From Phaeodactylibacter xiamenensis (GTDB lineage Bacteria; Bacteroidota; Bacteroidia; Chitinophagales; Saprospiraceae): a stretch of DNA of 61,742 nt. The notes beneath the pieces were generated by a model. That model did not search any database. It was not told the DNA's origin and saw only the letters and a program-made list of their open reading frames with translations. The stretch's first letter is position 1; each line of letters begins with the position of its first letter. This document shows positions 39,838-61,742 of the stretch, in pieces. The DNA lies in contig NZ_JPOS01000080.1 of NCBI RefSeq assembly GCF_000759025.1, positions 1 to 61,742 on the forward strand. Direction: 5' to 3'. The translations under genes were made by a program, and so were the position numbers.

Positions 39838-40228
39838 ATCACTATATAACCCAAAGGACAACACCTTTGATGAAGGGGCTGCAAGCAAGCTGCTCCAAAT
39901 GAATGAGAATACTGTGGAAGCAGTCAAATTGTTTATGGAGCGCAATGCTCGTTTTGTTACTGCCAATCAGTTGCGGAATGTGTATGCCCGCATTCGCGCT
40001 AATGAAGGCAAACAAGACGAGTCCCAATTAGCGATGTTACGGGTACAACTCGCCTTTATCAGGGGCAAATCCGATCGCCGTAGTAAAGGCTTCCATGCTC
40101 TGCTTAAGCTGCTGGATGAAATGGTGCAGGAAGTGACCGCTCAAAAGGCTGAGCTTAAGCAGTTGAAACAGTTTTTTGAAGCTATTCTGGCCTATCACAA
40201 ATATTACGAAAACGTCAAAACCCGCTAA
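39830..40228 (+). CDS. csm2: Csm2 small subunit (Cas11)
   Basis: 132 residues, all-helical, of a size typical for Csm2. KLFMERNARFVTANQLRNVY and LAFIRGKSDRR resemble Csm2 signatures. It forms the inner filament of the Csm complex next to crRNA-target duplexes. It overlaps cas10 and lies 2 nt from csm3. Confidence 0.85.
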   Translation: MSKSLYNPKDNTFDEGAASKLLQMNENTVEAVKLFMERNARFVTANQLRNVYARIRANEGKQDESQLAMLRVQLAFIRGKSDRRSKGFHALLKLLDEMVQEVTAQKAELKQLKQFFEAILAYHKYYENVKTR

Positions 40229-40230
40229 CT

Positions 40231-41085: not shown

Positions 41086-41089
41086 GTCT

Positions 41090-46962: not shown

Positions 46963-46964
46963 AA

Positions 46965-47063
46965 TACGGTTACTACGCCAACTCCGATTCCTCCGTCTAC
47001 GCCCGCCTACGGGAGATGCTAGACTACCTAAAATACTTTGACGCTGACAAACCATCTACATGA
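46965..47063 (+). pseudogene. C-terminal remnant of a lost effector gene
   Basis: After the STAND stop, a different frame gives 32 codons: YGYYANSDSSVYARLREM, then LDYLKYFDADKPST, and a TGA overlapping the cas6 ATG (ATGA). ANSDSSVYARLRE aligns gap-free with the ends of the STAND NTPase and the 2TM protein. It has no start and is GC-richer than the STAND gene, like the csm genes. It is best read as the tail of a previous operon member replaced by the STAND gene. Confidence 0.6.
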
Positions 47064-47755
47064 CCCTTCAATACCTGCAAGCAGAATTTTCACTCCCCCT
47101 CCGATTCAAAGAAATTGCACGCTGGCGTGGTGCCTGGTGCGAACTTGTCGGCTGGGACGTTGATTATTTCCATAATCATAATGCGAAAGATGGCAGTGTT
47201 ATTTATCGGTATCCATTATTGCAATACAGAGCTTGGAAGCGCCGTGCAAGTTTCGTTGCTTTTCAAGAAGCAGTACCTGCGATCCAAGAGGCTTTGATCG
47301 ATATGGATTGGGAACTTCGCTGGGAAGATACTCTGACCACGCTTAGTCTGCAGCAGATGCATATGCGTACGCATGAATTGTATTTAGACTCAAAATGGCA
47401 TTATTACAAATTACATAACTATCTTCCGTTCAACTCCAAGAATTTTGCCAATTGGCAGGAACTGGAATTACTCACTGATAAGGTTCAATTTCTAAATAAG
47501 CTAATACCTAATCATATCTTGGGATTTGCTAATGGTATTAATTGGCGTCTTGAAGGGTATTTCGATGTTCAGTTGACTAACTTCATAGGTCAACGACCAA
47601 TGACTTTACACAATATCGTATTTCCCACTTTTACACTCGAATTCAGAACCCAGCTCTTTCTACCTTCTGGCGTGGGGCTAGGTAAAGGTGTAAGTCATGG
47701 TTTTGGTACCTTAGAACATATTGGAGCAAGTACTAAGTCAGAACTGGAAGAATAA
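47060..47755 (+). CDS. cas6: Cas6 crRNA-processing endoribonuclease
   Basis: 231 residues with the C-terminal RAMP glycine-rich loop LPSGVGLGKGVSHGFGTLE, the signature of Cas6, and an N-terminal FHNHN...YRYPLLQYR block seen in Bacteroidota Cas6 proteins. It cuts pre-crRNA within the repeats to leave the 5' tag. It is the last gene of the operon and lies 50 bp before the array 1 leader. The paralogous half-gene is at 37662. Confidence 0.85.
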   Translation: MTLQYLQAEFSLPLRFKEIARWRGAWCELVGWDVDYFHNHNAKDGSVIYRYPLLQYRAWKRRASFVAFQEAVPAIQEALIDMDWELRWEDTLTTLSLQQMHMRTHELYLDSKWHYYKLHNYLPFNSKNFANWQELELLTDKVQFLNKLIPNHILGFANGINWRLEGYFDVQLTNFIGQRPMTLHNIVFPTFTLEFRTQLFLPSGVGLGKGVSHGFGTLEHIGASTKSELEE

Positions 47756-47805
47756 TGCTCTCTCCTTTATTAATCTTGTAAAATAGCCTATATTAGTTTA
47801 CCAAC

Positions 47806-48237: not shown

Positions 48238-49033
48238 GTCAGAGCGAGCATCCAGAATAGATAGGACTGCGACGTTGGTGCATCTGCAGGTGTGGTTAGT
48301 CCCTCAATGTCAGAGCGAGCATCCAGAATAGATAGGACTGCGACCTTAGCGTTCTAGGGAATTTCCTGCTCACTCCATGTCAGAGCGAGCATCCAGAATA
48401 GATAGGACTGCGACATCATAAGTCGAAAGTTTTTTGCCTAATACTAAGTCAGAGCGAGCATCCAGAATAGATAGGACTGCGACAAATTTTTAGGCTCGGG
48501 TTTTGGGTTGCCCTGAGTCAGAGCGAGCATCCAGAATAGATAGGACTGCGACTACTCTCATGTGTAGTCTAATTTATTAAAAAAGTCAGAGCGAGCATCC
48601 AGAATAGATAGGACTGCGACAGTCATTTATGACTGTTTTTAGTTTGAACATTATCGTCAGAGCGAGCATCCAGAATAGATAGGACTGCGACCCGCGCGGA
48701 CCAATCCAACCGAACTCAGCTTCAAGTCAGAGCGAGCATCCAGAATAGATAGGACTGCGACAAATCACTCAGTCTTGACTTATCTGAGAAAAGTCAGAGC
48801 GAGCATCCAGAATAGATAGGACTGCGACTACATTCAATGTTCTCCTGAGCTTCTTGAATATCGTCAGAGCGAGCATCCAGAATAGATAGGACTGCGACAA
48901 TACTGAAAAACGTTTTCATTCTTTTATAAATTGTCAGAGCGAGCATCCAGAATAGATAGGACTGCGACGCACCGCTGCCGCCGTAAGGGCTTCAAAAAGG
49001 GTCAGAGCGAGCATCCAGAATAGATAGGACTGC

Positions 49034-49297
49034 CGAAGCGCAGCGAAGGCCCGTATGGGCGATCCCGGTTAAGATGTACTATCTGGTTCCAGGCTACTTC
49101 AAGTACATCTAAGACCGGGACTAAATCGGCGCTGTTTCTGTCCTAATCCTGCCGATTTAGCTTTACTTTTGAATTGGTTTATAGATAGATGATGTATTTT
49201 TGGTCAGATGCCCGCTTACACCGCATCCCTAGATACTGACAAGCGCAGCTTCGTCAGTAAGAAAGGGCATACCGTGGGAAGCGTGAGCTTTTCCGGT
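49034..49297 (+). ncRNA. array-embedded structured unit U1 (array 1, core copy 1)
   Basis: This 264-nt unit replaces a spacer. It starts CGAAGCGCAGCG after a repeat cut at GGACTGC. It contains the GGCCCGTATGGGC hairpin, hairpin A (49064-49119: CCCGGT..AGATGTACT / AAGTACATCT..ACCGGG), hairpin B (49121-49160: CTAAATCGGC / GCCGATTTAG), and the alpha tail. The alpha tail has the stem ATGCCC.CTTAC (49208-49219) / GTAAG...GGGCAT (49257-49270), an inner CTGACAAGC/GCTTCGTCAG hairpin, and GGAAGC-GTGA-GC with a GNRA-type loop. It ends in a partial repeat (49298-49328). Too long and too conserved to be a spacer; probably transcribed with the array. Confidence 0.65.
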
Positions 49298-49669
49298 AGA
49301 GCGCATCCAGAATAGATAGGACTGCGACAGTTAAAGCTACTTCCACGTATCCATACACAGTCAGAGAGCGCATCCAGAATAGATAGGACTGCGACCGAAA
49401 GATACATTTGTCAATAAGCAAATAGCGTCAGAGCGAGCATCCAGAATAGATAGGACTGCGACAACGTTGCAACACCTGTGTTCTCTCCAGAAATTGGGTC
49501 AGAGCGAGCATCCAGAATAGATAGGACTGCGATTCCCACTCTCCAAAAGCTTTGTCGCGGTACTTGTCAGAGCGAGCATCCAGAATAGATAGGACTGCGA
49601 TACTCTCTCTAAGGAGGTTTTGTGAGGCGGTGCAGGGTCAGAGCGAGCATCCAGAATAGATAGGACTGC

Positions 49670-50149
49670 CGAAGCGCAGCGGAGGCCCGTATGGGCGATC
49701 CCGGTTCAAGACTTACTAAGGCTCGCTTTTAGAGCTCACCAAGAAAGTCTAAGACCGGGACTAAATCGGCGTTGTTTCGTCCATGGGGTAGCCGATTTAG
49801 CTAAAATTGTATTTTCTTTCTTGATTCAGCTGGAGCGCCTTAAAGGGACTGCATAGGCAGCGGAAGTCCCGGTCTTAGCGTAGTAGCTGAAGTGTAACGA
49901 AGCGTCACGTAGCTTCACCGGGAAGAGCGCATCCAGAATAGATAGGATCCCGGTTAAGATTTACTAAGGTTCGCCTTTGGGGCTCACCAAGAAAGTCTAG
50001 GGCCGGGACTAAATCGGCGCTATGGCTATGGCTGGGGCAGCCGATTTAGCTTTACTTTTTGTATTGGAGTATAGATGATATATTTTTGGTCAGATGCCTG
50101 CTTGCACCGCAAGTAAAGGCATGCCGCGTAAAGCGTGAGCTTTTCCGGT
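49670..50149 (+). ncRNA. array-embedded structured unit U2 (core copies 2 and 3)
   Basis: Composite unit. Core copy 2 has hairpin A 49700-49759 and hairpin B 49761-49800 with a beta tail containing GGGACT...AGTCCCGGTCTTAG. A repeat fragment follows (49924-49947) that stops at GATAGGA and runs straight into core copy 3 (hairpin A 49949-50007, hairpin B 50009-50049) with a short alpha tail. In copy 3 the alpha stem is ATGCCT.CTTGC (50094-50105) / GCAAG...AGGCAT (50109-50122), which differs from copy 1 at two base pairs yet stays fully paired. Confidence 0.65.
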
Positions 50150-50316
50150 AGAGCGCATCCAGAATAGATAGGACTGCGACAGAGTTCGACAGATTTCGAG
50201 AATTTTTCTCTCGTCAGAGCGAGCATCCAGAATAGATAGGACTGCGACCAAAAGCTCCATAAATTACGCCTGTTGTTTGTGGAGTCAGAGAGCGCATCCA
50301 GAATAGATAGGACTGC

Positions 50317-50832
50317 CGAAGCGCAGCGGAGGCCCGTATGGGCGATCCCGGTTCAAGACTTACTAAGGTTCGCCTTTGGGGCTCACCAAGAAAGTCTAAG
50401 ACCGGGACTAAATCGGCGCTGTTTCGTCCATGGGGTAGCCGATTTAGCTAAAATTGTATTTTCTTTCTTGATTCAGCTGGAGCGCATTTAAGGGACTGCA
50501 TAGGCAGCGGAAGTCCCGGTCTTAGCGTAGTAGCTGAAGTGTAACGAAGCGTCACGCAGCTTCACCGGGAAGAGCGCATCCAGAATAGATAGGATCCCGG
50601 TTAAGACTTACTAAGGTTCGCTTTTAGAGCTCACCAAGTAAGTCTAAGACCGGGACTAAATCGGCGCTATGCCTGTACTAGTTCTGCCGATTTAGCTTTT
50701 ATGAGCTGCTTTTGTTGCACTGGAGCACCTCGTGCTGCAATAGCGTGGAGTGCTCCAGTCCCGGTCTAGCGGAGTAGCTGAACAGTGTGAAGCGCCTGTA
50801 GGGCCCGTATGGGTTACGTAGCTTTGCCGGGA
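50317..50832 (+). ncRNA. array-embedded structured unit U3 (core copies 4 and 5)
   Basis: Core copy 4 (hairpin A 50347-50406, hairpin B 50408-50447) with a beta tail, a repeat fragment 50571-50594, then core copy 5 (hairpin A 50596-50654, hairpin B 50656-50695) with a gamma tail. In the gamma tail GGAGCAC/GTGCTCC pairs locally, and AGTCCCGGTCTAG (50757-50769) is complementary to CTAAGACCGGGACT (50644-50657) with one bulged A. It ends CCGGG fused directly to ATCCAGAATAG, a repeat missing its first ~12 nt (50833-50856). Confidence 0.65.
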
Positions 50833-51062
50833 TCCAGAATAGATAGGACTGCGACTCAGCGGCAGTAATAAGGCAATGTTTCCTACATGTCAGAGCGAGC
50901 ATCCAGAATAGATAGGACTGCGACTTTACTCGCAACATGGATGGGGCGCAAAACCGCCAGTCAGAGCGAGCATCCAGAATAGGTAGGACTGCGACCATGG
51001 TAATACAGTGAATGTGGTAATGAAATATCGTCAGAGCGAGTATCCAGAATAGATAGGACTGC

Positions 51063-51600
51063 CGAAGCGTAGCTAAGGCCCGTATGGGCGATCCCGGTTA
51101 AGATGTACTATCTGGTTCCAGGCTACTTCAAGTACATCTAAGACCGGGACTAAATCGGCGCTATTCCTGTCCTTGGTCTGCCGATTTAGCTTGATTGCGA
51201 AATTACATTTTGTGTATGCAGCTCTGGAGGCTCCGCATTGGAAGAGGGGAGATCTGGTATGCCCCATATGGGTACGGAGCTTAACCTGGAAAGCGTAGGG
51301 CCATGTAAAGCGCCTGCCTGATACCGTATGGGCGTAGCGGCATCCCTTTGCATAATACACATTCCGCACCTACGGCGCGGGGAAGCTGCGGCTTTACTGT
51401 GTTACCTACCTATAGCCCCTAACGGGGCTTACATCGATTGACTGCTACTTGCATTGGGCACGATGACCGCACTAGATTCAGCTGCAGTGCGTTAGATTGA
51501 GCTATGTCGGCAATGCCCCGCTAGGGGCAAAATGTCGGTAACCACAAGACAACGCTCTGCCACCGCGCCGTAGGTGCGGAAGGTGAGCTGCGGCCCTGCA
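51063..51600 (+). ncRNA. terminal structured unit U4 and array 1 trailer (core copy 6)
   Basis: Hairpin A 51093-51148, hairpin B 51150-51189, then a different (delta) tail and a long structured trailer. From about 51330 the trailer is shared almost word for word with the end of array 2 (61600-61742). It holds CCGCACCTACGGCGCGG (51364-51380), exactly complementary to CCGCGCCGTAGGTGCGG (51564-51580), and two small internal hairpins: AGCCCC-TAAC-GGGGCT and GCCCC-GCTA-GGGGC. No protein is encoded. It may be a terminator, a 3' processing signal or a stand-alone RNA. Confidence 0.55.
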
Positions 51601-51623
51601 TGGAAAACGCACACCACAAAAAA

Positions 51624-51652
51624 CCACCGGAGCACACAAGAAGCTCCGGTGG
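51624..51652 (-). terminator. Rho-independent terminator of the SPOR gene
   Basis: Read on the minus strand: CCACCGGAGC, a 9-nt loop, GCTCCGGTGG, then a run of six T. The perfect 10-bp stem lies 38 nt after the stop of the minus-strand gene at 51690. Confidence 0.9.
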
Positions 51653-51689
51653 CCAACTCAAAGGAAAGGCAAAAACAGGCAACTCTTTA

Positions 51690-52382
51690 TCAACTCTGGT
51701 AGAGGCGTATTTCATCCAAGGTGCGGGGGAAGGCTTTTAGGCGCTGAGCTTTCTTGAACTCAATGGCAGCACGGCGGCTGCGGAAGGGGCCGATCAGCAC
51801 TTTGTAGGGGACCGCATCGTAAGTGTGGTGACCTACCCATACCGGGCGGCGGTAGTGTGGTGCGACCCGGTGCTGCATTGCCCAGGCGGATTCATAGTTC
51901 CTGAAGGCGCTGAGCTGTAGGTACACGGGTGTCTCAATCGGTACAGGTGGTGGCTGCGGGTTAAAGTAGGGCTGCGGCTTGGGTACGGCAACGGCAGCTT
52001 TCTCGGGTTCACGGAGCTCAGGAGCTGCTGCGGGGGCTTCCGGGGCAGGCTCTATAACTGGCTGCTTTGGCGTTGGCGGGGTTTGAGCAGGGGCGGGTAA
52101 AGGAGCCAATTCCTGCGCTGCTTTACCGGGGGCTTCCGCGGTCATTGGGACTACCCTGACGTAGGCGTAGTTAAAGGCCAGTAAGGTAGCTGCAATGATG
52201 CCTACGCCAACGATCATTGTGATGCGTGTCTGCATGGCAAAGGCTTTTTGCGAAAGCCTCACCTTCAGGGGCATTAGCCGCAGTACCAGGCTCATAATCA
52301 GGTGGCGGGTGCGGCGGGCTATCCAATAGCCAATCAGTAAAGGGAGTACAACCCTTATCAGGATAGAGTAGGACATAAACAT
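51690..52382 (-). CDS. SPOR-domain membrane protein 1
   Basis: 230 residues. It has an N-terminal hydrophobic segment (ILIRVVLPLLIGYWIA), a second TM helix at about 53-75 (IVGVGIIAATLLAFNYAYV), and a Pro/Ala-rich linker (about 80-150). The C-terminal SPOR domain (VYLQLSAFRNYESAWAMQ...YKVLIGPFRSRRAAIEF) binds denuded peptidoglycan glycans at division sites. It is transcribed toward the array 1 trailer and ends in its own terminator. It is probably an unrelated housekeeping gene between the two CRISPR halves. Confidence 0.8.
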   Translation of the reverse strand: MFMSYSILIRVVLPLLIGYWIARRTRHLIMSLVLRLMPLKVRLSQKAFAMQTRITMIVGVGIIAATLLAFNYAYVRVVPMTAEAPGKAAQELAPLPAPAQTPPTPKQPVIEPAPEAPAAAPELREPEKAAVAVPKPQPYFNPQPPPVPIETPVYLQLSAFRNYESAWAMQHRVAPHYRRPVWVGHHTYDAVPYKVLIGPFRSRRAAIEFKKAQRLKAFPRTLDEIRLYQS

Positions 52383-52439
52383 AGGTTTAGAAAGCAGTTT
52401 CAGAATTCGTTTTGCCTATGCTTGCCTTGCCTTTCATTG

Positions 52440-52979
52440 TCAATTGAAATAGACGACTCTGGCTTTTAAGCCGTTACGGGCCATATGGGCTTCCGCTGCT
52501 TCCGGCCCGCGGAAAGGGCCAATGACGAGGTGATAGGTGGTGCCTGAAGACTGGCCTCTGACCAATTCCAGGTTTTGTTGGTGTATGACGGATAGCCTCC
52601 GCTGTGCATCATTGGCGCTTTCCCAGGTCGGGTACCGCCCGATTTCCAGGTAACAAGTGCGCAAAGTGGTCGTGGCGGATTTTACTGGTGTAGTGCCCAT
52701 ATTGCCATACCTGGCGGGAGCCGCAGGGGCCGTTGGGGCGGCAGGGTCACGGTCTGCAAAGAAGAGTATGAGTGCAAACAGGCTAACCACAATGAGTACA
52801 AACAGGAAAATGCCGCTGCCGTACGGCCGCTCTCTGTATCCATGATAAGGTATTGGTGGCGGATGATAATACCGGTTGTGGTAATAATCGTCGTAGTGCC
52901 GTTGGTTACTCCCTGTGAGCAGTGCACCAATCACGGCGCCTATGATAAGGATGATCAGGATTAAGCTTATGTTTTCCAT
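52440..52979 (-). CDS. SPOR-domain membrane protein 2
   Basis: 179 residues. TM1 (ISLILIILIIGAVIGALL), a Tyr/His/Pro-rich loop (NRYYHPPPIPYHGYRERP), TM2 (GIFLFVLIVVSLFALILFF), a Pro/Ala linker, and a C-terminal SPOR domain (CYLEIGRYPTWESANDAQR...YHLVIGPFRGPEAAEAHM). It lies 57 bp upstream of the other SPOR gene on the same strand, so it is likely an operon. The two SPOR domains are paralogous. Confidence 0.8.
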   Translation of the reverse strand: MENISLILIILIIGAVIGALLTGSNQRHYDDYYHNRYYHPPPIPYHGYRERPYGSGIFLFVLIVVSLFALILFFADRDPAAPTAPAAPARYGNMGTTPVKSATTTLRTCYLEIGRYPTWESANDAQRRLSVIHQQNLELVRGQSSGTTYHLVIGPFRGPEAAEAHMARNGLKARVVYFN

Positions 52980-53188
52980 AGGTGCTTTAGTTTGTTTCCA
53001 GGATTCGCATTAAACACGGAGCTGAAGGGCTTTTTATTCCAATACTGCTCAAGCAAACAATGTCTGCCTTAGGAAAACCCTTATTTCGCAGGGCATCTGG
53101 AAACAGGAATAGGAAAAATTAAAAAAAGTAGCCTCCTGATGTAAGAAAAGGAAACCCCGCTCCGTGATACAGCACAAAAGGGGAGTCA

Positions 53189-53533
53189 ATGAATCACATT
53201 TTATCACTTCTTGAAGGTATGAAAAAATACAAGGAACACCGGGAGGCCGAAGAGGAGCCTCCTTCCCAATCGGGACATGAACGATTAACAGAAAAACTGG
53301 TAGAGCTCAACATGAAGGCACTGGACGACAACTGGAACCTACTCTACCTGGTTGCAGTAAAAAACATAAAAGGTAAAACCAATTCAAATTCAGAGCTGCC
53401 ACAGTTTATTACCCAAAGAAGTTTCTCGATAACGCTGCAATTTGCTGATCAGCTCCGTCATAATCCTATCTCTAACCCAACTCTGAACAATATCATGAAC
53501 GCACTAAATACATTCATCAACCAATATCACTAA
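53189..53533 (+). CDS. small helical protein, unknown
   Basis: 114 residues, with a charged N-terminus (MKKYKEHREAEEEPPSQ), no membrane segment and no recognised domain. ATG start in the 210-bp gap after the divergent SPOR gene. It lies 20 bp before the next small gene, so it is likely co-transcribed with it and perhaps with the sigma factor. Confidence 0.5.
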   Translation: MNHILSLLEGMKKYKEHREAEEEPPSQSGHERLTEKLVELNMKALDDNWNLLYLVAVKNIKGKTNSNSELPQFITQRSFSITLQFADQLRHNPISNPTLNNIMNALNTFINQYH

Positions 53534-53553
53534 ACGTTTTCTATTTACTAATT

Positions 53554-53994
53554 ATGAAAACACAAGAAAACATGACTGCAATTTTGGCAAACAGGCCCCC
53601 GGGCAAAGACCATGCCGTAGACAGTAGCGTGCTAAGCAATGCACTGAATACATTGGCCCCGGGTGCAGTCCGGAAAGCTCCCGATTTGATCGGGCACATC
53701 AAAGCTTACATTTTTAATCCTCATCATATCTCTTCCGATTCCTTAAGGCGAAAGATCAGGCAGGTGGCCCGCCTGCATAAATCACTGGGCCTTACCCAAA
53801 CGGCCATTGAAGCCCTCCTCGATACCCTTGAGGGGATGAAAATCATCGTGGAAGAGCAGCAGTTGCAGTCCCTGCATGATATAGACGCTTTCATGAACGC
53901 TAAAAAAAAGTACTTCAAAAAAAGCCTGGATACCATGGGAGAGACAGGAGACAGCCCGGAGCATTCCGGCCCGGTGGAAGGGAGCAGGCCCTGA
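53554..53994 (+). CDS. small helical protein, possible paralogue of 54878
   Basis: 146 residues. The core HIKAYIFNPHHISSDSLRR and GMKIIVEE resemble RIRAYLFEQPQLKDTGLQR and NWVIVEE in the protein at 54878, with similar spacing. No known family. Together with that gene it flanks the sigma factor, which hints at a small regulatory cassette (for example sigma/anti-sigma partners). The similarity is weak. Confidence 0.5.
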   Translation: MKTQENMTAILANRPPGKDHAVDSSVLSNALNTLAPGAVRKAPDLIGHIKAYIFNPHHISSDSLRRKIRQVARLHKSLGLTQTAIEALLDTLEGMKIIVEEQQLQSLHDIDAFMNAKKKYFKKSLDTMGETGDSPEHSGPVEGSRP

Positions 53995-54206
53995 CTTTTT
54001 TCACAGTGTTGAAATAAACCGGCCATCTGCTCCGTATTATGATTGTAGAGAGACAAAACGATAGCCACTAAGCCTCTGCGTCGATTGGAAAGTGCAGAAC
54101 GACAGGCTTAAAAACAAACTGTAACCTGCTCCAAAAGTGGAGCTGAAAAGCATATATGGTGCCTTTAGTACCTCCTCATCATTATTAACTTTTCAATCCA
54201 GTTGTT

Positions 54207-54824
54207 ATGTCCTCAGATTTCCAATCTTCGTGGAGTCCAGATGACCAGGAGTTTGTACGCCAGGTCTGGCAGGTTTACTTTGAGCCGCTTTATCTTTCAG
54301 CCGTTAAGTTGTGCAGCGGCAATAGGGTAAGCCCGGATGATCTGGTCATGGACTTGTTTTACAAAATTGCAAAAAAGCCAGACTTGTTCCGGAACAACCT
54401 GGAACAAAGAGGAGCGGGGTACCTGTTTTCGGCACTTAAAAACGAATTCCGTGACACTTTGCGCTCGGACAAAAGCCGTCGGCAAAACGAACAGGCCATT
54501 GGCACGCTCCGTACGGGGCAAACTTCATTGTATGCCCATTGTGCTAATATCTGGCAGGAACATATCGAGCATTTTCTTGGCCTGGTGCTGAAAGGGCGGG
54601 AACTTGATATCATGGTCTGGTTTTCCCGTGGGTTTAAGTACAGGGAGATCGCTGAGAAGCTGGGTATGAACATCAATACAGTGGGGGTGTCCATAAAGCG
54701 GTCCAGGGAGAAATTAATCAAAGCCCTGGGGGATGCGGGGATGGACCGGTTCAAAAACATTGATATCAAGAAGTGGCGGCGCAAGCGGCCCCGCGATCCC
54801 GAACTTTTTGACGAAGAGGAATAA
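54207..54824 (+). CDS. ECF-type RNA polymerase sigma factor
   Basis: 205 residues. Region 2-like segment: YFEPLYLSAVKLCSG, then SPDDLVMDLFYKIAKKP, with LFSALKNEFRDTLR. Region 4 helix-turn-helix: FSRGFKYREIAEKLGMNINT, then VSIKRSREKL (about 140-172). A ~30-residue basic/acidic C-terminal tail (KKWRRKRPRD) is unusual. It directs RNA polymerase to a specific promoter set; the targets are unknown. It lies 500 bp upstream of the RT-cas1 operon on the same strand. Confidence 0.75.
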   Translation: MSSDFQSSWSPDDQEFVRQVWQVYFEPLYLSAVKLCSGNRVSPDDLVMDLFYKIAKKPDLFRNNLEQRGAGYLFSALKNEFRDTLRSDKSRRQNEQAIGTLRTGQTSLYAHCANIWQEHIEHFLGLVLKGRELDIMVWFSRGFKYREIAEKLGMNINTVGVSIKRSREKLIKALGDAGMDRFKNIDIKKWRRKRPRDPELFDEEE

Positions 54825-54877
54825 GCGCACCTCTAGACGCATTGGTTTGGTCATTTTTCCCTCAAAGTAATCCTATC

Positions 54878-55261
54878 ATGACAAATATAAAAGCAAGCAA
54901 AATCAACCCGGGAGTAGCCAAAACACTCTTTACCCTATTTCGCGATAACCCGCATTGCGATATTGCAGAAGTCCCTCTGCTTCGGCAGTTGCTTGTGGCT
55001 CATGCCCCGGAGTTGCTGCGGCACACCAACGAAGCGCAGTTGCTGCGCAACCGGATCAGAGCCTATCTTTTTGAGCAGCCTCAGCTTAAAGATACCGGCC
55101 TTCAAAGAGCAGTGCCCGAGGATCTTTTCGACGGGCTATACGTCCTTAAGAAAATGCTGCGCGATTTCAACTGGGTAATCGTTGAGGAAAGCATGAGGCA
55201 AAAAAAGATGGTATTTGGCCTGTGGCTGGATAACATCCTAAAAGAAGAAGAGGAAGAATAA
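54878..55261 (+). CDS. small acidic-tailed helical protein
   Basis: 127 residues from the ATG at 54878; an in-frame TTG at 54842 gives a longer, less plausible start. It is helical with an acidic C-terminus (LKEEEEE). It may be related to the protein at 53554. It is the gene directly upstream of the RT, separated only by 55 bp containing an inverted repeat. It could regulate or associate with the RT-Cas1 module, but no domain is recognised. Confidence 0.5.
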   Translation: MTNIKASKINPGVAKTLFTLFRDNPHCDIAEVPLLRQLLVAHAPELLRHTNEAQLLRNRIRAYLFEQPQLKDTGLQRAVPEDLFDGLYVLKKMLRDFNWVIVEESMRQKKMVFGLWLDNILKEEEEE

Positions 55262-55282
55262 CCAAAGGGCCCCGGCAAAACA

Positions 55283-55316
55283 GGCTGTAAATCTTACAAA
55301 ACCAAACTTTACAGCC
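55283..55316 (+). promoter_or_regulatory. inverted repeat abutting the RT start codon
   Basis: GGCTGTAAA (55283-55291) and TTTACAGCC (55308-55316) are perfect 9-bp complements with a 16-nt loop; the RT ATG follows immediately at 55317. As DNA it could be an operator; as mRNA, a hairpin controlling initiation or a protein-binding site for autoregulation. Confidence 0.6.
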
Positions 55317-56360
55317 ATGGATAAACGTACCCGGCAGCGGCACCTGCAGCTCAAAACGCAGTTCTGCAGCCTGCGCTCTGTAACGGAGTTCAGTATGCTC
55401 GTGAAAACGGAAAAACGCAAGCTGCAACTGCTTGCCGCCCAGCCTGCTTACAACACCTTCACCGTACCCAAAAAGGACGGCGGGGAACGCCTCATTGAAG
55501 CGCCTGCTCCTGCACTCAAGAAAGCACAGGGCTCCATCAACCGCTTCCTGCAGAGCATTTACTACCTGGAAAAGACCACTGCCGCTCATGGTTTCGTGGT
55601 AGGCGTACGCAATGATGATGACCGGCGTAACATTCTTACAAACGCCAAGAAGCACCTCAACAAAACTTACCTGCTCAACATCGACCTGCAGGACTTCTTC
55701 CATACGGTAACCAGGGATGAGGTTTTGGACGTCTTTATGAAGCCGCCCTTCAACTTCAAGCGGCAATTGCCGGACCTGCTGGCGGATTTGCTCACCTACA
55801 GCGGCCGCCTCCCGATGGGTGCACCGACATCACCGGTATTGTCCAATTTTGCCTGCCGTGAAATGGACCGCCGCCTTACAGCCATGGCAGAGGATATGCT
55901 CTGGGCATACACCCGCTATGCTGATGATATGAGCTTTTCCTCCAACCGGAACATTGATGAAGAAACCGTCAATACCGTCATCCGAATCATCCGTGAAGAA
56001 GGCTTTGTGCCCAATAAGCGGAAAATCAAAGTCTATGGCCCCAAAGACCAGAAAGTGGTCACCGGGCTGCTCATATCTGACAAGGTCAGTTTGGAGGACA
56101 ACTACCTGGCACAACTCGAAACGGACATCCGACAACTCGGTGACGTGCTGCTGGCGCAAAACGAGCAGGGCCAACTGGCTACTCGCTGGGTGGAACAGCT
56201 CAAGCAACAGGTGCGCGGCAGGCTAAGCTTTGCCGGCTTTGTCCTGGGGCGCCGCCATGAGCGCTACAATCAGCTTAAAGATGCCTACTACAATGCCGTC
56301 AACCCGCCTCAGGAAGAGTTTGGTGCGATCAGCTGGCGGGGATTTCCTTACAATTTTTAA
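55317..56360 (+). CDS. free-standing retron-like reverse transcriptase of the CRISPR adaptation operon
   Basis: 347 residues, an RT domain only. Motifs in order: RT1-like RLIEAPAPALKKAQ (58-71), AHGFVVG (90-96), NAKKH (109-113), LNIDLQDFFHTV (120-131), LPMGAPTSPVLSN (165-177), catalytic YADD (201-204), VTG (248-250). NAxxH and VTG are hallmarks of retron-type RTs; group II intron-like CRISPR RTs lack them and are often fused to Cas1. There is no X/maturase, Cas6 or Cas1 fusion. The cas1 gene starts 11 nt later. Expected role: making cDNA, either from RNA spacer precursors or from a dedicated structured RNA. Confidence 0.85.
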   Translation: MDKRTRQRHLQLKTQFCSLRSVTEFSMLVKTEKRKLQLLAAQPAYNTFTVPKKDGGERLIEAPAPALKKAQGSINRFLQSIYYLEKTTAAHGFVVGVRNDDDRRNILTNAKKHLNKTYLLNIDLQDFFHTVTRDEVLDVFMKPPFNFKRQLPDLLADLLTYSGRLPMGAPTSPVLSNFACREMDRRLTAMAEDMLWAYTRYADDMSFSSNRNIDEETVNTVIRIIREEGFVPNKRKIKVYGPKDQKVVTGLLISDKVSLEDNYLAQLETDIRQLGDVLLAQNEQGQLATRWVEQLKQQVRGRLSFAGFVLGRRHERYNQLKDAYYNAVNPPQEEFGAISWRGFPYNF

Positions 56361-56371
56361 TACCTCCAATC

Positions 56372-57349
56372 ATGCAATTAGTTCTCGATACGCCCGGTAC
56401 GATAGTGACGCACAAGGATGGCGCTTTCCGCATACAGGGCAAAAAAGGCGGGCGTACCTTTGGCCCGGGCAAGCTGGACAGCATCGCCATTACGGCAAAC
56501 GTCCAGTTGTCGGCGGGTGCCATTCAGCTGGCCATCCGGAACGGGATACCCATCTTGTTCTTCGACTACATCGGCAAAGCACAGGCACGGCTCTGGAGCC
56601 CTTACTTCGAGTCCATCGCCACCCTGCGCCGTCAACAGGTGCACTTTGCAGAGTCGACAGAAGCCACGCAGTGGATGATTGACTTGTTCCTGCTGAAAAC
56701 GGAGGCTCAGATGGCCCATTTGAAATACCTTAAAGGTCGGAAAGTCGCAACGGGCATTGGAGCAACAGTAGCCAAAATGAAGGTGGAGTCCCGCAATTTT
56801 GAAAACTTTCGCGGGGCCCTGCTCGAAGAAGTGCGGCAGCAGATGATGGGGGTGGAAGGCGGGCTTGCACGCCTGTACTGGCCAGCCGTCAGCAGTGCAT
56901 TGCCCAGGGCGTTCCGCTTCAAAAAGCGTACCCGGCGCCCGGCGAAGGACTACTTTAATGCCGCCATTAACTACGCTTATGGCATGCTCTACAGCGTAGT
57001 GGAAGGTGGGCTTTTTGCTGCCGGGCTCGACCCCCACCTCGGCCTGCTGCATGCAGATGAACACCGGAAACCTACCCTGGCTTTTGATATGATAGAGCCC
57101 TTCCGGCCCTGGGCCGATCAGGTGGTGTCAAGGGCTTGCGTACAGGGGCAAATGCAGCCGGGCTTCTTTGCGAAAAACCAGTACGGGTTCTTCCTGAACA
57201 AACACGGCAAAGCTTTCCTCATCCCCGCATTCAACGACTTTCTGCGGCAACGGGTCACCTACCTGCAGCAGGAAGCTACGGTCAAAAACCATATTTACTT
57301 CCTTGCTGCCCGCCTGGCTCAGCGTATCCGGGCTACGGCAGGGGAGTAG
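56372..57349 (+). CDS. cas1: Cas1 integrase
   Basis: 325 residues. N-terminal beta domain (KDGAFRIQGKKGGRTFGPGK) and C-terminal helical catalytic domain with MMGVEGGLARLYW (E162), LGLLHADEHRKP (H227) and AFDMIEPFRP (D239/E242), the expected metal-binding set. With Cas2 it integrates spacers at the leader-repeat junction. It follows the RT by 11 nt, consistent with an RT-Cas1 complex formed from separate chains. Confidence 0.92.
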   Translation: MQLVLDTPGTIVTHKDGAFRIQGKKGGRTFGPGKLDSIAITANVQLSAGAIQLAIRNGIPILFFDYIGKAQARLWSPYFESIATLRRQQVHFAESTEATQWMIDLFLLKTEAQMAHLKYLKGRKVATGIGATVAKMKVESRNFENFRGALLEEVRQQMMGVEGGLARLYWPAVSSALPRAFRFKKRTRRPAKDYFNAAINYAYGMLYSVVEGGLFAAGLDPHLGLLHADEHRKPTLAFDMIEPFRPWADQVVSRACVQGQMQPGFFAKNQYGFFLNKHGKAFLIPAFNDFLRQRVTYLQQEATVKNHIYFLAARLAQRIRATAGE

Positions 57350-57421
57350 CGAAGGGCCATCCGATGCTTTATAAGGGGGCAACAGCAGGCACCGCTATTT
57401 CTTCATCCAAAATCAAGTCCC

Positions 57422-58291
57422 TTGCTGGCCAAAAAAATTGAAGCTCACCTGCTGAAAAACTATGCTCAAAGCAGCCGCCTGCTGCCGAATGCGGCCTGGG
57501 AGATCGGCGCCCTGCTCAGTGAGCATTCCGCCGCAGAGCTGAAGGAAGTCTCTGAGGAGCTGCAACTGCTCGGGTATGCCTTCCGGATAGCGCAACTGAG
57601 GCAGATGGTCCGTCTATTCCGGGCTTTCCCGCATCAATCAGACCTCAGCCACCGCTTATCGGTTACGCACCATGTAATCATTGCCCGCCTGTCAGACCCG
57701 GCGCGAAGATCGTTCTACCTGCTTGCCGCCGAAGCCGGGCAGTGGAGTACGGCAGCGCTGCGCCGGCAGATTAAAGCCAGGTACTTTGAGCGTTGCAGCA
57801 GCCCCGGCTTACCCGTCAACCCGCACTATGTCCTGGAGTTTGCGGGCGGTGCGGGCATCACTTCGGAGGCACAGCTGGAAGCGAATTTGCTGCACCGTAT
57901 TGAGGCTTTCCTGCTGGAGCTCGGAGCAGGCTTTGCATTTGTGGGGCGGCAAAAGCGGATTACGACGAGCAGTGGGCGCCGGTTTTACGTAGACCTCGTT
58001 TTCTACCATGCCCACCTGAAGTGCTACGTGCTGATTGAGCTAAAAGTGGGTGCCCTGTCTCATCGGGATATCGGGCAGCTCGATTTCTACGTCCGCTATT
58101 TCGATGAGCACTTCCGGCAGTCAGAAGACAAGCCCACGATCGGGCTCCTCCTGGTCAGGCAACAGGATCAAACGCTGCTGCGATACTCCATGCTCCACCA
58201 AAGCGAGCAATTGTGGTCAGCGACCTATCAGCTGCACCTGCCTTCCGAAGCTGAGCTGTCCGCCGTACTGGAATCTTATTTTCAAACCTAA
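57422..58291 (+). CDS. PD-(D/E)XK nuclease of the DUF1016 (YhcG-like) family inside the adaptation operon
   Basis: 289 residues from a TTG start; no good ATG exists before residue 62, so the true start is uncertain. The N-terminal helical DUF1016-N region (NAAWEIGALLSEHS, QLRQMVRLFRAFP) is followed by the nuclease domain: FYVDLVFYH (D of PD), then YVLIELKVG (ExK), then DIGQLDFYVRYFD and KPTIGLLL. All catalytic residues are present. The domain order matches YhcG-like proteins but the N-terminus is short. It lies between cas1 and cas2, a place where Cas4-like trimming nucleases sit in other systems. Inferred role: processing of cDNA or prespacer ends. Confidence 0.8.
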   Translation: MLAKKIEAHLLKNYAQSSRLLPNAAWEIGALLSEHSAAELKEVSEELQLLGYAFRIAQLRQMVRLFRAFPHQSDLSHRLSVTHHVIIARLSDPARRSFYLLAAEAGQWSTAALRRQIKARYFERCSSPGLPVNPHYVLEFAGGAGITSEAQLEANLLHRIEAFLLELGAGFAFVGRQKRITTSSGRRFYVDLVFYHAHLKCYVLIELKVGALSHRDIGQLDFYVRYFDEHFRQSEDKPTIGLLLVRQQDQTLLRYSMLHQSEQLWSATYQLHLPSEAELSAVLESYFQT

Positions 58292-58305
58292 AGACACTTA
58301 AATCA

Positions 58306-58608
58306 ATGTTGCACCTGATCTGCTATGATATCACCAACAACAGCCTGCGGGCTAATTTTGCCCGTAAGATCATCGCCTGCGGGCTGGACCGCATCAACAA
58401 ATCCGTCTACCTCGGGCTGATCAAAGAAACGCCCCTGAACAACCTCGAAGCCGAGCTCTCCAGACTTCTGAAGTTGCGCGGGCAGCCACAGGATAGCCTG
58501 ATCATCTTACCCATCCTGGCCCGGCAGGTACAGGACATGCGCATCTACGGCAGGAATGACCTCGATAAAGACGAGCTGAGCGGTGAGAAAAGCACTCTGA
58601 TACTGTGA
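58306..58608 (+). CDS. cas2: Cas2
   Basis: 100 residues. CYDITNNSLRANFARKI is the Cas2 ferredoxin-fold start with the conserved Asp after strand 1, and QDSLIILPIL forms a later strand. It dimerises to bridge two Cas1 dimers. It lies 14 nt after the nuclease gene and 75 bp before the array 2 leader. Confidence 0.9.
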   Translation: MLHLICYDITNNSLRANFARKIIACGLDRINKSVYLGLIKETPLNNLEAELSRLLKLRGQPQDSLIILPILARQVQDMRIYGRNDLDKDELSGEKSTLIL

Positions 58609-58683
58609 GCCCAAATTAGTCCGTAGGCCAGTCAAAAATGTAAATTGCGAATGCCCTCTAAAAATCCTATATTGTTGAGCCAA

Positions 58684-59115
58684 GTTCTTTGAAATACCAA
58701 ATTCCAATGTCCAAATACCGGACAAAACCATCCACTTTTTGATGACAAAGTGTACGCAAGGAACACCAAAATTGCAAAATTACATTATCGCTAACAATAA
58801 TATTAACATTGCAAAATACTGTTTTACAGACTGCTAAACAGATAAAAAACCGCTATGCACTAGAAGTTGAATATAGTAAAAACGGCTATGTTTTAATTTC
58901 GGCGCATTTTGGGATAAAGACCTGTTAGTCAGTGTTTTGTATAGTTTTGGTGTACTCCTTTCCACTAAAAAGCAGCATTTTGTGACAGCCCAGAGACACT
59001 AAAAACACTTTATACATTGTTAAAATATGGGCATATTGCTCCGGATTGGTGTTAAAGTTGTAATATTTTGTGTATTGGAGGTCAGCTAGTTAAGTGGCTT
59101 TTTGGGAAGGGCAGG
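58684..59115 (+). promoter_or_regulatory. CRISPR leader of array 2
   Basis: This 432-bp copy of 47806-48237 has only scattered substitutions. It ends GGCAG before the first repeat. It directly follows the cas2 gene, so adaptation genes and array 2 form one unit. Confidence 0.85.
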
Positions 59116-59850
59116 GTCAGAGAGCGCATCCAGAATAGATAGGACTGCGACACTCCTGTCACGTTGGTATAATTTTCCCAACAAAAAGTCAGAGAGCGCA
59201 TCCAGAATAGATAGGACTGCGACGCCGGCGGCACGAGCGGAGCAACCGTGTCGGGTCAGAGAGCGCATCCAGAATAGATAGGACTGCGACTGGTGTACTT
59301 CTGACCTCCATCTCTCCCCATCTTGGTCAGAGAGCGCATCCAGAATAGATAGGACTGCGACGTTTCATCTGTAAAGATTTTATGAATGAAATAAAAAAGT
59401 CAGAGAGCGCATCCAGAATAGATAGGACTGCGACCCAAAGGATTCAATTTCCCCGGGAACCATTTCGGTCAGAGAGCGCATCCAGAATAGATAGGACTGC
59501 GACGTTTGTGTTGGCCCTACTTCTGATTCCTTGCGTGGTCAGAGAGCGCATCCAGAATAGATAGGACTGCGACGTTGCTGCGTTCCAGAATTTGAATGTC
59601 CATTCAGTCAGAGAGCGCATCCAGAATAGATAGGACTGCGACAACTTCTGGATGTTTGCAATTTGATTCATCTTAAGTCAGAGAGCGCATCCAGAATAGA
59701 TAGGACTGTGACTCTTTTCCCATATCAATTTTTTTTAGATATGGGTCAGAGAGCGCATCCAGAATAGATAGGACTGCGACACCTATGTTTTGGTTTTGTT
59801 AATGAATTATTGTTAGTCAGAGAGCGCATCCAGAATAGATAGGACTGCGA
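59116..59850 (+). CRISPR. CRISPR array 2 (10 leader-proximal spacers)
   Basis: Repeat form GTCAGAGAGCGCATCC...GATAGGACTGCGAC, starting at 59116, 59188, 59255, 59326, 59399, 59468, 59538, 59607, 59677, 59745 and 59816. Spacers are 31-37 nt. The ninth repeat has GTGAC at its end. The last repeat merges into the first structured unit at GGACTGCGA/TCCCGG. All repeats use the second repeat form, unlike the leader-proximal part of array 1. Confidence 0.95.
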
Positions 59851-60111
59851 TCCCGGTTAAGATGTACTATCTGGTTCCAGGCTACTTCAAGTACATCTAA
59901 GACCGGGACTAAATCGGCGCTGTTTCTGTCCTAATCCTGCCGATTTAGCTTTACTTCTTGTATTGGAGTATAGATAGATGATGTATTTTTGGTCAGATGC
60001 CCGCTTACACCGTATCCCTAGATGCTGACAAGCGCAGCTTCGTCAGTAAGTAAAGTGATCCCAGACGATGAATGTCTGGGCAGGACCGTGGGAAGCGTGA
60101 GCTTTTCCGGT
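59851..60111 (+). ncRNA. array 2 structured unit U1a (core copy 7)
   Basis: Hairpin A 59852-59907, hairpin B 59909-59948, alpha tail. Compared with array 1 copy 1, the tail carries an extra perfect hairpin CCCAGACGATGAATGTCTGGG-like insertion (CCCAGAC / GTCTGGG). It joins the preceding repeat at GCGA instead of after the CGAAGCG module. It ends in a partial repeat (60112-60139). Confidence 0.65.
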
Positions 60112-60139
60112 AGAGCGCATCCAGAATAGATAGGACTGC

Positions 60140-60429
60140 CGAAGCGCATCTAAGGCCCGTATGGGCGATCCCGGTTAAGATGTACTATCTGGTTCCAGGC
60201 TACTTCAAGTACATCTAAGACCGGGACTAAATCGGCGCTATTCCTGTCCTAATCCTGCCGATTTAGCTTTACTTCTTGTATTGGAGTATAGATAGATGAT
60301 GTATTTTTGGTCAGATGCCCGCTTACACCGTATCCCTAGATGCTGACAAGCGCAGCTTCGTCAGTAAGTAAAGTGATCCCAGACGATGAATGTCTGGGCA
60401 GGACCGTGGGAAGCGTGAGCTTTTCCGGT
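60140..60429 (+). ncRNA. array 2 structured unit U1b (core copy 8)
   Basis: A near-duplicate of U1a including the inserted CCCAGAC/GTCTGGG hairpin, but with the full start module (CGAAGCGCATCTAAGG, CCCGTATGGG). Hairpin A 60170-60225, hairpin B 60227-60266. It is bounded by partial repeats. Confidence 0.65.
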
Positions 60430-60457
60430 AGAGCGCATCCAGAATAGATAGGACTGC

Positions 60458-61017
60458 CGAAGCGCAGCGGAGGCCCGTATGGGCGATCCCGGTTCAAGAC
60501 TTACGAAGGCTCGCCTTGAGGGCTCACCAAGAAAGTCTAAGACCGGGACTAAATCGGCGCTGTTTCGTCCATAGGGTAGCCGATTTAGCTAAAATTGTAT
60601 TTTTTTCTTGATTCAGCTGGAGCGCCTTTAAGGGACTGCATAGGCAGCGGAAGTCCCGGTCTTAGCGTAGTAGCTGAAGTGTAACGAAGCGCCCAAAGGG
60701 CCCGCATGGGTCACGCAGCTTCACCGGGAAGAGAGCATCCAGATTAGATAGGATCCCGGTTCAAGACTTACTAAGGTTCGCCTTGAGGGCTCACCAAGAA
60801 AGTCTAAGACCGGGACTAAATCGGCGCTGTTTCTGTCCTAATCCTGCCGATTTAGCTTTACTTTTGAATTGGTTTATAGATAGATGATGTATTTTTGGTC
60901 AGATGCCCGCTTACACCGTATCCCTAGATGCTGACAAGCGCAGCTTCGTCAGTAAGAAAAGTGATCCCAGACGATGAATGTCTGGGCAGGACCGTGGGAA
61001 GCGTGAGCTTTTCCGGT
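60458..61017 (+). ncRNA. array 2 structured unit U2 (core copies 9 and 10)
   Basis: Core copy 9 (hairpin A 60488-60547, hairpin B 60549-60588) with beta tail, a degenerate repeat fragment 60730-60753 (AGATTAG for AGAATAG), then core copy 10 (60755-60814, 60816-60855) with alpha tail. It has the same beta-repeat-alpha order as U2 of array 1. Its beta tail holds a 20-nt insertion (GCCCAAAGGGCCCGCATGGG) absent from array 1. Confidence 0.65.
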
Positions 61018-61045
61018 AGAGCGCATCCAGAATAGATAGGACTGC

Positions 61046-61742
61046 CGAAGCGCAGCGAAGGCCCGTATGGGCGATCCCGGTTAAGACTTACTAAGGTTCG
61101 CCTTATGGGCTCACCAAGTAAGTCTAGGACCGGGACTAAATCGGCGCTGTTTCGTCCATAGGGTAGCCGATTTAGCTAAAATTGTATTTTCTTTCTTGAT
61201 TCAGCTGGAGCGCCTTTAAGGGACTGCATAGGCAGCGGAAGTCCCGGTCTTAGCGTAGTAGCTGAAGTGTAACGAAGCGCCCAAAGGGCCCGCATGGGTC
61301 ACGTAGCTTCACCGGGAAGAGCGCATCCAGAATAGATAGGATCCCGGTTAAGATTTACTAAGGTTCGCCTTTGGGGCTCACCAAGAAAGTCTAGGGCCGG
61401 GACTAAATCGGCGCTATGGCTATGGCTGGGGCAGCCGATTTAGCTTTTATGAACTACTTTTGTTGCACTGGAGCACCTCGTGCTGCAATAGGATGGAGTG
61501 CTCCAGTCCCGGCCTAGCGAAGTTGCTGAACAGTGTGAAGCGCCTGTAGGGCCCGTATGGGTTACGTAGCTTAACCTGGAAAGCGCCCGGTCACGTAAAG
61601 CGCCGTCCTGATACGGCATGGGCATAGCGGCATCCCTTTGCACAATACACATTCCGCACCTACGGCGCGGGGGAAGCTGCGGCTTTACTGTGTTACCTAC
61701 CTATAGCCCCTAACGGGGCTTACAGTGATTGACTGCTCCTTA
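61046..61742 (+). ncRNA. array 2 structured unit U3 and start of trailer (core copies 11 and 12)
   Basis: Core copy 11 (61076-61134, 61136-61175) with beta tail, repeat fragment 61318-61341, core copy 12 (61343-61401, 61403-61443) with gamma tail. AGTCCCGGCCTAG (61505-61517) pairs with CTAGGGCCGGGACT (61391-61404). It then runs into the same trailer as array 1 (CCGCACCTACGGCGCGG, AGCCCCTAACGGGGCT) and is cut by the window end. Confidence 0.6.

Follow-up and report, generated by a model that had tools for sequence, protein, structure and literature searches.

A structured element associated with the leader-distal ends of CRISPR arrays in Phaeodactylibacter xiamenensis and other genomes of one family

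What are the long, hairpin-rich units that take the place of spacers in two CRISPR arrays of Phaeodactylibacter xiamenensis? The window considered here is the whole stretch of 61,742 nucleotides on contig NZ_JPOS01000080.1. An initial annotation had recognized in it 12 such units with a shared core of hairpin A and hairpin B, and all 12 cores were found to begin exactly at the positions it gave. A pattern describing hairpin B matches the window 12 times, in every case on the + strand, and finds nothing in 100 shuffles. The arrays extend upstream of the range noted at that time, starting at about 48238 and 59116. They are listed below with the unit cores (each matched by both the pattern and the covariance model), an example of a 3' module and an insert found ahead of many units.

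48238..51190, + strand: CRISPR array 1, 36-nt repeats GTCAGAGCGAGCATCC..GGACTGCGAC; six units lie within it
49034..49062, + strand: GC-rich insert CGAAGCGCAGCGAAGGCCCGTATGGGCGA, which splits the repeat ahead of 7 of the 12 units
49064..49161, + strand: unit 1 core, hairpins A and B
49700..49801, + strand: unit 2 core, hairpins A and B
49802..49924, + strand: one beta-type 3' module as an example, with a second TCCCGG..CCGGGA hairpin
49949..50050, + strand: unit 3 core, hairpins A and B
50347..50448, + strand: unit 4 core, hairpins A and B
50596..50696, + strand: unit 5 core, hairpins A and B
51093..51190, + strand: unit 6 core, hairpins A and B; downstream repeat absent
59116..61742, + strand: CRISPR array 2, repeats GTCAGAGAGCGCATCC..; 11 repeats, then six leader-distal units, then other repeats up to the contig end
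59852..59949, + strand: unit 7 core, hairpins A and B; adjoins a repeat without its last base
60170..60267, + strand: unit 8 core, hairpins A and B
60488..60589, + strand: unit 9 core, hairpins A and B
60755..60856, + strand: unit 10 core, hairpins A and B
61076..61176, + strand: unit 11 core, hairpins A and B
61343..61444, + strand: unit 12 core, hairpins A and B; downstream repeat absent

Every core in the window is predicted to fold into two hairpins, with folding energies of -38.9 to -49.2 kcal/mol, and a unit read from 5' to 3' consists of hairpin A, hairpin B, and then 3' hairpins that vary. The eight window units (of 12) whose 3' end was set are 201-260 nt long, and all measured units fall within 152-260 nt. 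The beta-type 3' module has ten matches in the genome, seven of them at arrays and the remaining three with E > 0.2. In array 1, the units are interleaved with ordinary spacers, so that five have spacers downstream; in array 2, the six units form a single block at the leader-distal end. The repeat preceding a unit is interrupted by the GC-rich insert in seven cases (a 29-nt pattern, seven matches), truncated at the junction AGGA/TCCCG in four, and lacking only its final base in one (59852). The claim that partial repeats bound the units on both sides holds for ten of them, but no repeat follows the last unit of either array (51093 and 61343).

The linkage to arrays extends beyond the window. 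In its genome (7.87 Mb), all 15 covariance-model matches lie inside CRISPR arrays or at an array end, spread over four arrays and three repeat types, two of the arrays being on other contigs (C81 and C84). The original view of the units as conserved structured modules linked to CRISPR arrays is supported. Many copies away from CRISPR would, by the initial annotation, have made them ordinary intergenic repeats, and this refuting outcome did not appear: samples of the family, order and phylum, searched with stricter filters and with 10 candidates scored per genome (so that weak copies could escape), contained one clear off-array copy, in G243, flanked by two copies of the 3' end of tRNA-Gly. A strict pattern applied to 84,980 species matched in two relatives only, at loci carrying CRISPR repeats.

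Counting the genome of the window, 17 array ends carry the element, and they come from 8 genomes in 5 genera (G000 4, G003 1, G004 2, G005 3, G006 1, G028 2, G106 3, G143 1), 12 of the ends being assigned by model score or close kinship and the five in G028 and G106 by eye, from the architecture and place of the sequence. The R2 whole-genome search, with E up to 2, gave no match in either of these two genomes; the fetched loci alone gave E values of 0.15 and 0.22 at the array ends of G028 and 1.7 for one tandem copy in G106. Some copies at array ends have diverged strongly in sequence with their architecture unchanged. Among the genomes where it was seen, the element is confined to one family, and at all counted ends its strand is that of the crRNA. 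In several arrays, the leader-distal end holds it either as a lone cap or as a short tandem, and in G003 it is retained behind a single repeat, with the spacer absent.

The element is absent from the array ends of G004 C292 and G002 C27. In the family, 23 further ends of arrays or repeat runs also lack it; some of these close a run of like repeats without being the final repeat of their locus, and five (in G159 and G051) bear other long units. That family survey comprised 36 oriented rows: the 23 without the element, six that were too short, and seven with it, two of these being the same G106 arrays counted twice. G004 C38 is interrupted by the contig end, and G001 has no evaluable array end. 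The weak matches G004 C306, G004 C183 and G003 C384:912 (E 0.13-1.5) were left out of the array placement. Hairpin B follows a repeat without hairpin A in the second copy of G004 C149 and in G004 C276. A small contig of tandem modules, G005 C15:650-742 (E 0.056), in which no CRISPR repeat was seen, is unplaced.

The genes of the window that bear on what the element might do are these:

38038..43403, + strand: type III-A csm genes, Cas10/Csm1, Csm2, RAMP, Csm4, RAMP (Csm3 and Csm5 by order)
47060..47755, + strand: Cas6 (Cas6b N and C domains), immediately 5' of array 1
55317..56360, + strand: retron-type reverse transcriptase (RT; YADD, NAxxH, VTG)
56372..57349, + strand: Cas1
58306..58608, + strand: Cas2, immediately 5' of array 2

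At the junction with the terminal repeat, the start of hairpin A falls within the repeat's final 0-8 nt in 16 of the 17 array ends, the exception being array 1 of the window, with its insert. The terminal repeat has lost 4, 5, 7 or 8 nt at ten ends, which amounts to half or all of the 8-nt tag; it has lost 0-1 nt at six, which retain the tag wholly or nearly so; and at one it is split by the insert. Because ten of the 17 terminal repeats have lost 4-8 nt, the element is not, at those ends, an overlong spacer preceded by an ordinary tag, and the idea that Cas6 would release the units as tagged RNAs is not supported in the form in which it was put. The sequences directly 5' of the element differ (GCGA, AAGA, AGGA, GGATT, ACTG, GTAGG). 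Over the 65 nt past the repeat core, folding z is at or below -1.6 in 13 of 15 ends with the element and from -1.6 to +0.7 in 15 others, a comparison that is partly circular, as the classes were set by eye, and in which one sequence without the element is only 31 nt long.

Two-sided base changes occur at 13 of the 30 modelled pairs, a level reached in none of 500 shuffles, with pair counts biased towards the R1 structure to which the alignment (A6) was fitted. In this alignment, 96.1% of cells are paired; four of five covariation measures were reached in 0 of 500 shuffles and the fifth (further pair types) in 2. The arms of hairpin B, for example, are CTAAATCGGC/GCCGATTTAG in one species versus CTGCACAGC/GCTGTGCAG in another. 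A6 is a model-fitted alignment of 24 matches, 22 of them distinct, which omits the weaker matches (E > 5e-7: the second L069 copy, one L071 copy, and all below) and L071 entirely, including one stronger match there. MAFFT alignments of all copies had misplaced three rows with an extra C; these were dropped for A4, and A6 was then used instead.

On average, repeats track array type and elements track genome, an element being closer to others in its genome than to those on similar arrays elsewhere, although single pairs overlap (G000 array 2, for example, has 0.82 against array 3 and also against G004 C433), array types were set by hand, and G005 C250 and G003 C65 were excluded. Since elements are closest within a genome, it follows that they spread or undergo gene conversion, and the 12 copies in the window resemble the product of local duplication and exchange between arrays. 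The ends of a unit are complementary in 12 of the 15 units measured (TCCCGG..CCGGGA inverted repeats), partly by construction, the 3' ends having been set by end patterns.

As far as the relevant portions of two papers go, Class 1 systems are expected to produce extraneous crRNA (ecrRNA) from the last repeat, the problem has been described for types II, V and VI, and other CRISPR types are described as having mutated terminal repeats or hairpins that trap the guide (PMC13187072, PMC12080349). What is observed of the element (its sequence, position, strand, covariation, array linkage, and concerted likeness within genomes) leads us to suggest, tentatively and with rather less than even confidence, that the units are one array-linked structured element that caps leader-distal array ends against ecrRNA. 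The leader-distal end would be its basic place, and it would be transcribed together with the array. Hairpin A would form right behind the terminal repeat, or within its final few nucleotides, and so occupy the start of the guide of an ecrRNA from the spacer-less last repeat. With the 3' end of the repeat lost and a stable hairpin next to it, the tail would probably not be made into a Csm-loaded guide. Perhaps the cap also protects the 3' end of the pre-crRNA or terminates it. The extra copies in mid-array would have arisen by repeat-mediated recombination, and copies in the same genome may be kept alike through gene conversion or by spreading locally. Against all this, the element is much longer than a trap requires; five units of the window lie in mid-array with spacers downstream; likeness follows genome over array type, which is unexpected of a simple vertical trailer; the 23 ends in the family, and those of G004 C292 and G002 C27, do without it; the G243 copy is clearly off-array; and six junctions have the tag complete or almost so.

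Work by Liao from 2022 is reportedly among that on structures suppressing ecrRNA in type II-A, II-C and VI-B arrays. As portrayed in two later papers on arrays of these types (Feussner 2025 PMC12080349; Migur 2026 PMC13187072), such structures are like the element in that a hairpin adjoins a spacer-less extra repeat and the guide region is paired. Their extra repeat is altered, and that of the element is shortened by 4-8 nt at ten ends, by 0-1 nt at six, and split at one; here the hairpin overlaps the guide of the extra repeat at the 16 of 17 ends where it starts in the last 0-8 nt. Unlike them, the element is linked to type III-A, leader-distal, about 200 nt long and built of several hairpins, and it forms a homologous family across genera, multi-copy and also mid-array, known from sequence alone.

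The element can be read otherwise. REP/BIME and MITE repeats are short, palindromic and multi-copy, with hairpin ends, and the element is like them in each respect. The units could then be a small non-autonomous mobile element of this sort, inserting almost solely beside CRISPR repeats, with inverted-repeat ends and a hairpin at each, moved by some enzyme, possibly Cas1-Cas2, and of no gain to the array. We think this unlikely. Of the 15 units measured, 12 do have terminal inverted repeats, given 3' ends that were placed by pattern; on average, elements follow the genome and repeats follow array type, fragments of the repeat alternate with tandem copies in G000, G003 and G106, the G243 copy sits between tRNA-Gly ends, and other hairpin inserts occur within repeats. 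However, in place of many dispersed copies, the genome of the window has 15 of 15 at arrays, and, unlike REP/BIME and MITE repeats, the element is nearly confined to arrays, its strand and repeat-adjacent place fixed. Cas1-Cas2 insertion predicts leader-proximal copies, whereas these are leader-distal, and gene conversion without mobility could account for the likeness within genomes. A genome-wide search for Y1 transposases, the sole mobilising gene sought, gave three matches (contigs C22, C25 and C54). IS200/IS605-type (Y1) elements have the same target word at every 5' junction; here the junction has no fixed target word, and Y1 transposition with such a word was rejected. It is also improbable that the units are debris, palindromic repeats gathered by old, little-used leader-distal ends and persisting without function. 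The modules are nested and mosaic, and the G051 arrays have generic-looking foldback repeats in a comparable place, but the fold is preserved by two-sided base changes across large divergence, and the element keeps a narrow placement relative to the repeat, with no copies away from arrays in its own genome.

A further reading concerns the RT in the adaptation module. Retron ncRNA adjoins its RT, and msr-msd ncRNA has complementary ends and hairpins. The units are similar in size (152-260 nt), in their hairpins and, for most of those measured, in their complementary ends, and a retron-type RT is in the window locus. In this case, the units would be structured ncRNA partners of the RT, their ends acting as a retron's a1/a2; the RT would prime on or copy the unit RNA, and insertion of the cDNA by Cas1-Cas2 would explain its location in arrays. 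The RT motifs NAxxH, VTG and YADD are kept in every one of the 14 loci inspected, out of 22 that gave an RT match, the best matches are to retron models, with scores below their cut-offs, and the window RT leaves scant room for an ncRNA of its own (55 nt upstream and 11 nt downstream, by ORFs). Even so, we consider the reading very improbable. Unlike msr-msd ncRNA, the units are many, within arrays, and away from the RT, beginning or finishing about 3.5-6.3 kb from it or lying on other contigs, and are known here only as DNA sequence. Also, the putative a1 strand is already used by hairpin A, G168 and G023 have the RT with no element seen at array ends, and no RT was matched in the DNA fetched for the element-bearing arrays of G005 C35, G028 C14, G004 and, in the window's own genome, arrays 3 and 4. 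The fuller version makes the units the RNA partner of a CRISPR adaptation retron, which the RT would copy and Cas1-Cas2 would seed as cDNA, so that arrays carry their own template to mark or found ends; it strikes us as less credible still. Haliscomenobacter hydrossis has a retron-like RT adjoining CRISPR-Cas, as here, which its description leaves as a possible recent retrotransposition (Toro 2017 PMC5541045); unlike that case, the retron-type RT here is beside Cas1 in 14 loci of one family.

Other identities were considered and rejected. Covariance models of known Rfam RNAs gave no match up to E = 1 in 46900-61742. A tracrRNA-like anti-repeat is not indicated, the repeat duplex energies of four units being no better than the shuffled mean. 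Intrinsic terminators were predicted at none of the A hairpins; at hairpin B, two of the 12 window units have a weak predicted site on the + strand, and the C81 unit has none. Derivation from a phage or plasmid was rejected, as no match was found and the strict pattern gave 0 matches against viral contigs. Neither Rfam nor literature searches turned up a family of array-resident structured elements, and as an object the element fits no nameable kind.

If the element acts against ecrRNA, then its function, unlike the object itself, would be a variation on something described. If it is instead a parasite, it would be one adapted to CRISPR arrays themselves, living almost only there. And if it is a cap, it would reveal how the ecrRNA problem of the last repeat is handled in type III arrays: the cap may prevent the tail of the array from becoming a useless guide RNA.

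All 12 units that the initial annotation had placed in the two CRISPR arrays of the window, a complete contig (C80) within a 7.87-Mb genome, were confirmed at their positions, as was their two-hairpin core: hairpin A, closed by CCCGGT/ACCGGG, followed by hairpin B (CTAAATCGGC/GCCGATTTAG). The pertinent features of the window are:

about 48238-51190: CRISPR array 1, type III-A-linked
55317-56360: retron-type reverse transcriptase (RT) of the adaptation module, next to Cas1, with motifs NAxxH, VTG and YADD
between the arrays: locus comprising the RT, Cas1, a YhcG-like nuclease gene and Cas2
about 59116-61742: CRISPR array 2, type III-A-linked

Each unit begins at its 5' end with TCCCGG and runs through hairpin A and hairpin B into a 3' module. 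These modules are of several kinds, a number of which terminate in a second TCCCGG..CCGGGA hairpin. A GC-rich insert splits the repeat ahead of seven units in the window. Copies scattered outside CRISPR arrays would have marked the units as ordinary intergenic repeats, but all 15 matches of an improved model in the genome lie at or within arrays, and the 16 BLAST matches to a single unit are all inside or at the end of arrays. The arrays in question are the pair in the window, array 3 (on contig C81), which has a different repeat and cas6, cas1 and cas2 immediately upstream, and array 4 (on C84), with a third repeat type. In arrays 2, 3 and 4, no sequence separates the last repeat of the main run from the first unit. 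The 129-bp 3' module used as sole query gave 10 matches, seven at arrays and three elsewhere (E above 0.2).

A further multi-copy repeat lies after both window arrays (51270-51450 and 61560-61742) and also opens C81 (locus L047, 1-540), so C80 and C81 may be genomic neighbours. Downstream of the element at array 3 is an Rpn-like (Transposase_31/YhgA-like) gene (L047, 5008-5970), and the DNA after an array of the relative G004 (contig C433; L068, about 9146 onward) is very similar to the DNA of that gene.

A covariance model built from seven copies (R1) matched two of five congeners, G003 and G004, and no further relative across 99 genomes, the source genome included. Read directly, three arrays of G005 terminate in TCCCGCTC..; two of their elements are complete, with the sequence of hairpin B changed to CTGCACAGC/GCTGTGCAG, and in the third the contig end falls within hairpin A. 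R1 recovers both complete copies (E 2e-8 and 4e-7). A second model (R2), built from 24 matches, matched seven of 398 family genomes at E up to 0.05: four of the host genus, G006 and G143 (each at an array end) and G243. The copy in G243 (L085, 587-662, minus strand) is the sole clear off-array element; it lies directly beside a duplicated tRNA-Gly 3' end and resembles an insertion that duplicated about 20 nt. Samples of the order (3 of 396 genomes matched) and phylum (1 of 395) added no genome to those already found, and matches to a strict sequence pattern among 84,980 species were confined to contigs of two MAGs, G003 and G004.

Array ends were also read without a model. Cas1 is present in 51 of 150 family genomes, and in 40 Cas1-flanking regions from 33 genomes, arrays were detected by script and their leader-distal ends read by eye. 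The same architecture, its sequence further changed, appeared in G106 (all three arrays seen), where tandem units are separated by repeat fragments, and in G028 (two of three seen); none of these five ends was recovered by whole-genome model search. The element is absent from 23 other oriented array or repeat-run ends of the family, and six more are too short to judge. Over all sources, it stands at 17 array ends in eight genomes of five genera. In G003 (L070, 10220-10360), a leader-like stretch and a single repeat with no spacer precede the element.

Arrays of other relatives carry other inserts. An unrelated unit of ~310 nt fills four spacer places in G159 (L111, 7077, 7805, 11733 and 12882); its matches longer than 45 nt are confined to its own arrays among 21 genomes of that genus, and it constitutes a further family of array-embedded units, distinct from the first. 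Long, generic-looking foldback repeats (AAAGGGATTTCGG.., GTCATTCCG..) lie between CRISPR repeats in G051 (L107, minus strand, about 6300-7720), and a 22-nt GC-rich insert (CCGCCGCAGGCAGCTGCGCAGC) occurs in four of the last repeats of an array in G011 (L108, about 3190-3500).

The junction with the terminal repeat varies. In window array 1, the insert splits that repeat; at the other 16 ends, the loss never exceeds 8 nt: 0-1 nt at six (arrays 2-4, G003, G004 C149 and one G106 array), 4 nt at three (G143 and two of G106), 5 nt at five (three of G005, two of G028), 7 nt at one (G004 C433) and 8 nt at one (G006). The terminal repeat is thus shortened by at least 4 nt at 10 of the 17 ends. Since every array 4 repeat ends in T, the T at its junction is common to repeat and element. 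The predicted repeat stem extends into the 3' part affected by the losses; the 5' tag made by Cas6 is usually 8 nt long, a general value not specific to the element-bearing repeat.

How the copies spread may be judged from nine arrays of four congeners in which the first unit is complete. Mean element identity is 0.83 within a genome between different repeat types (6 pairs) and 0.71 between genomes with the same repeat type (10 pairs), whereas repeat identity runs the opposite way (0.72 and 0.87, respectively), although single pairs overlap. The units therefore do not simply descend with the array. Their likeness within a genome could come from gene conversion or from mobility; repeats of both window array types are mixed around the units of array 1, which points to exchange between arrays.

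In an alignment of the 24 matches fitted to the model (22 distinct rows), 96.1% of cells are paired, a share that drops to 25-44% if the 3' side is shifted by 1-3 columns, and two-sided changes occur at 13 of 30 pairs. Both observations support a fold under constraint, whether of RNA or of single-stranded DNA. All copies at the arrays examined lie on the crRNA strand (judged by repeat ends and the cas-gene and leader side), which fits RNA but also directed insertion. No description of such array-resident units was found in the literature searched, judged by titles and abstracts; a survey of structured RNAs in CRISPR operons offers 12 Bacteroidetes candidates, one of which could overlap with the units (PMC9067536).

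What might such units do? The best NCBIfam matches of the RT are retron models, with scores below the model cut-offs. NAxxH, which we take to be a retron-type RT motif, recurs with VTG and YADD at all 14 loci examined (from 22 with an RT match), suggesting a stable partnership; a YhcG-like PDDEXK gene is also nearby in about half. VTG is described as a retron motif, and one such RT, from Haliscomenobacter hydrossis, was thought possibly a recent retrotransposition (PMC5541045) and served elsewhere as an outgroup (PMC6013744). This recurrence opens the reading that the units are RNA partners of the RT; however, some loci with the element lack the RT, and some with the RT lack the element.

Elsewhere in the window, the stretch between the csm genes and Cas6 (43414-46962) encodes a protein of 1182 aa whose NACHT-like match falls narrowly short of the Pfam cut-off, a short ORF ahead of Cas10 (37629-38045) has only the N-terminal Cas6b domain (the full Cas6 is at 47060), and possible defence genes encode an AbiU/AIPR-like protein, an Hsp70-like protein and a kinase-AAA fusion (3459-5204, 22366-24888 and 25581-27386).

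The place of the units suggests another role. The last repeat of a Class 1 array has no spacer and is expected to give extraneous crRNA (ecrRNA) at the array end, and the oldest repeat may mutate, preventing this (PMC13187072); in type II-C, hairpins are described as sequestering the ecrRNA guide (PMC12080349). The unit occupies the site at which a trap of this kind would have to act, and at 10 of the 17 ends the terminal repeat is also shortened by at least 4 nt. Alone, this leaves the length of the units, the mid-array copies and the copy at the tRNA unexplained. Nevertheless, because it explains their strand, place and fold, we tentatively prefer, at somewhat short of an even chance, the reading in which the units cap array ends against ecrRNA.
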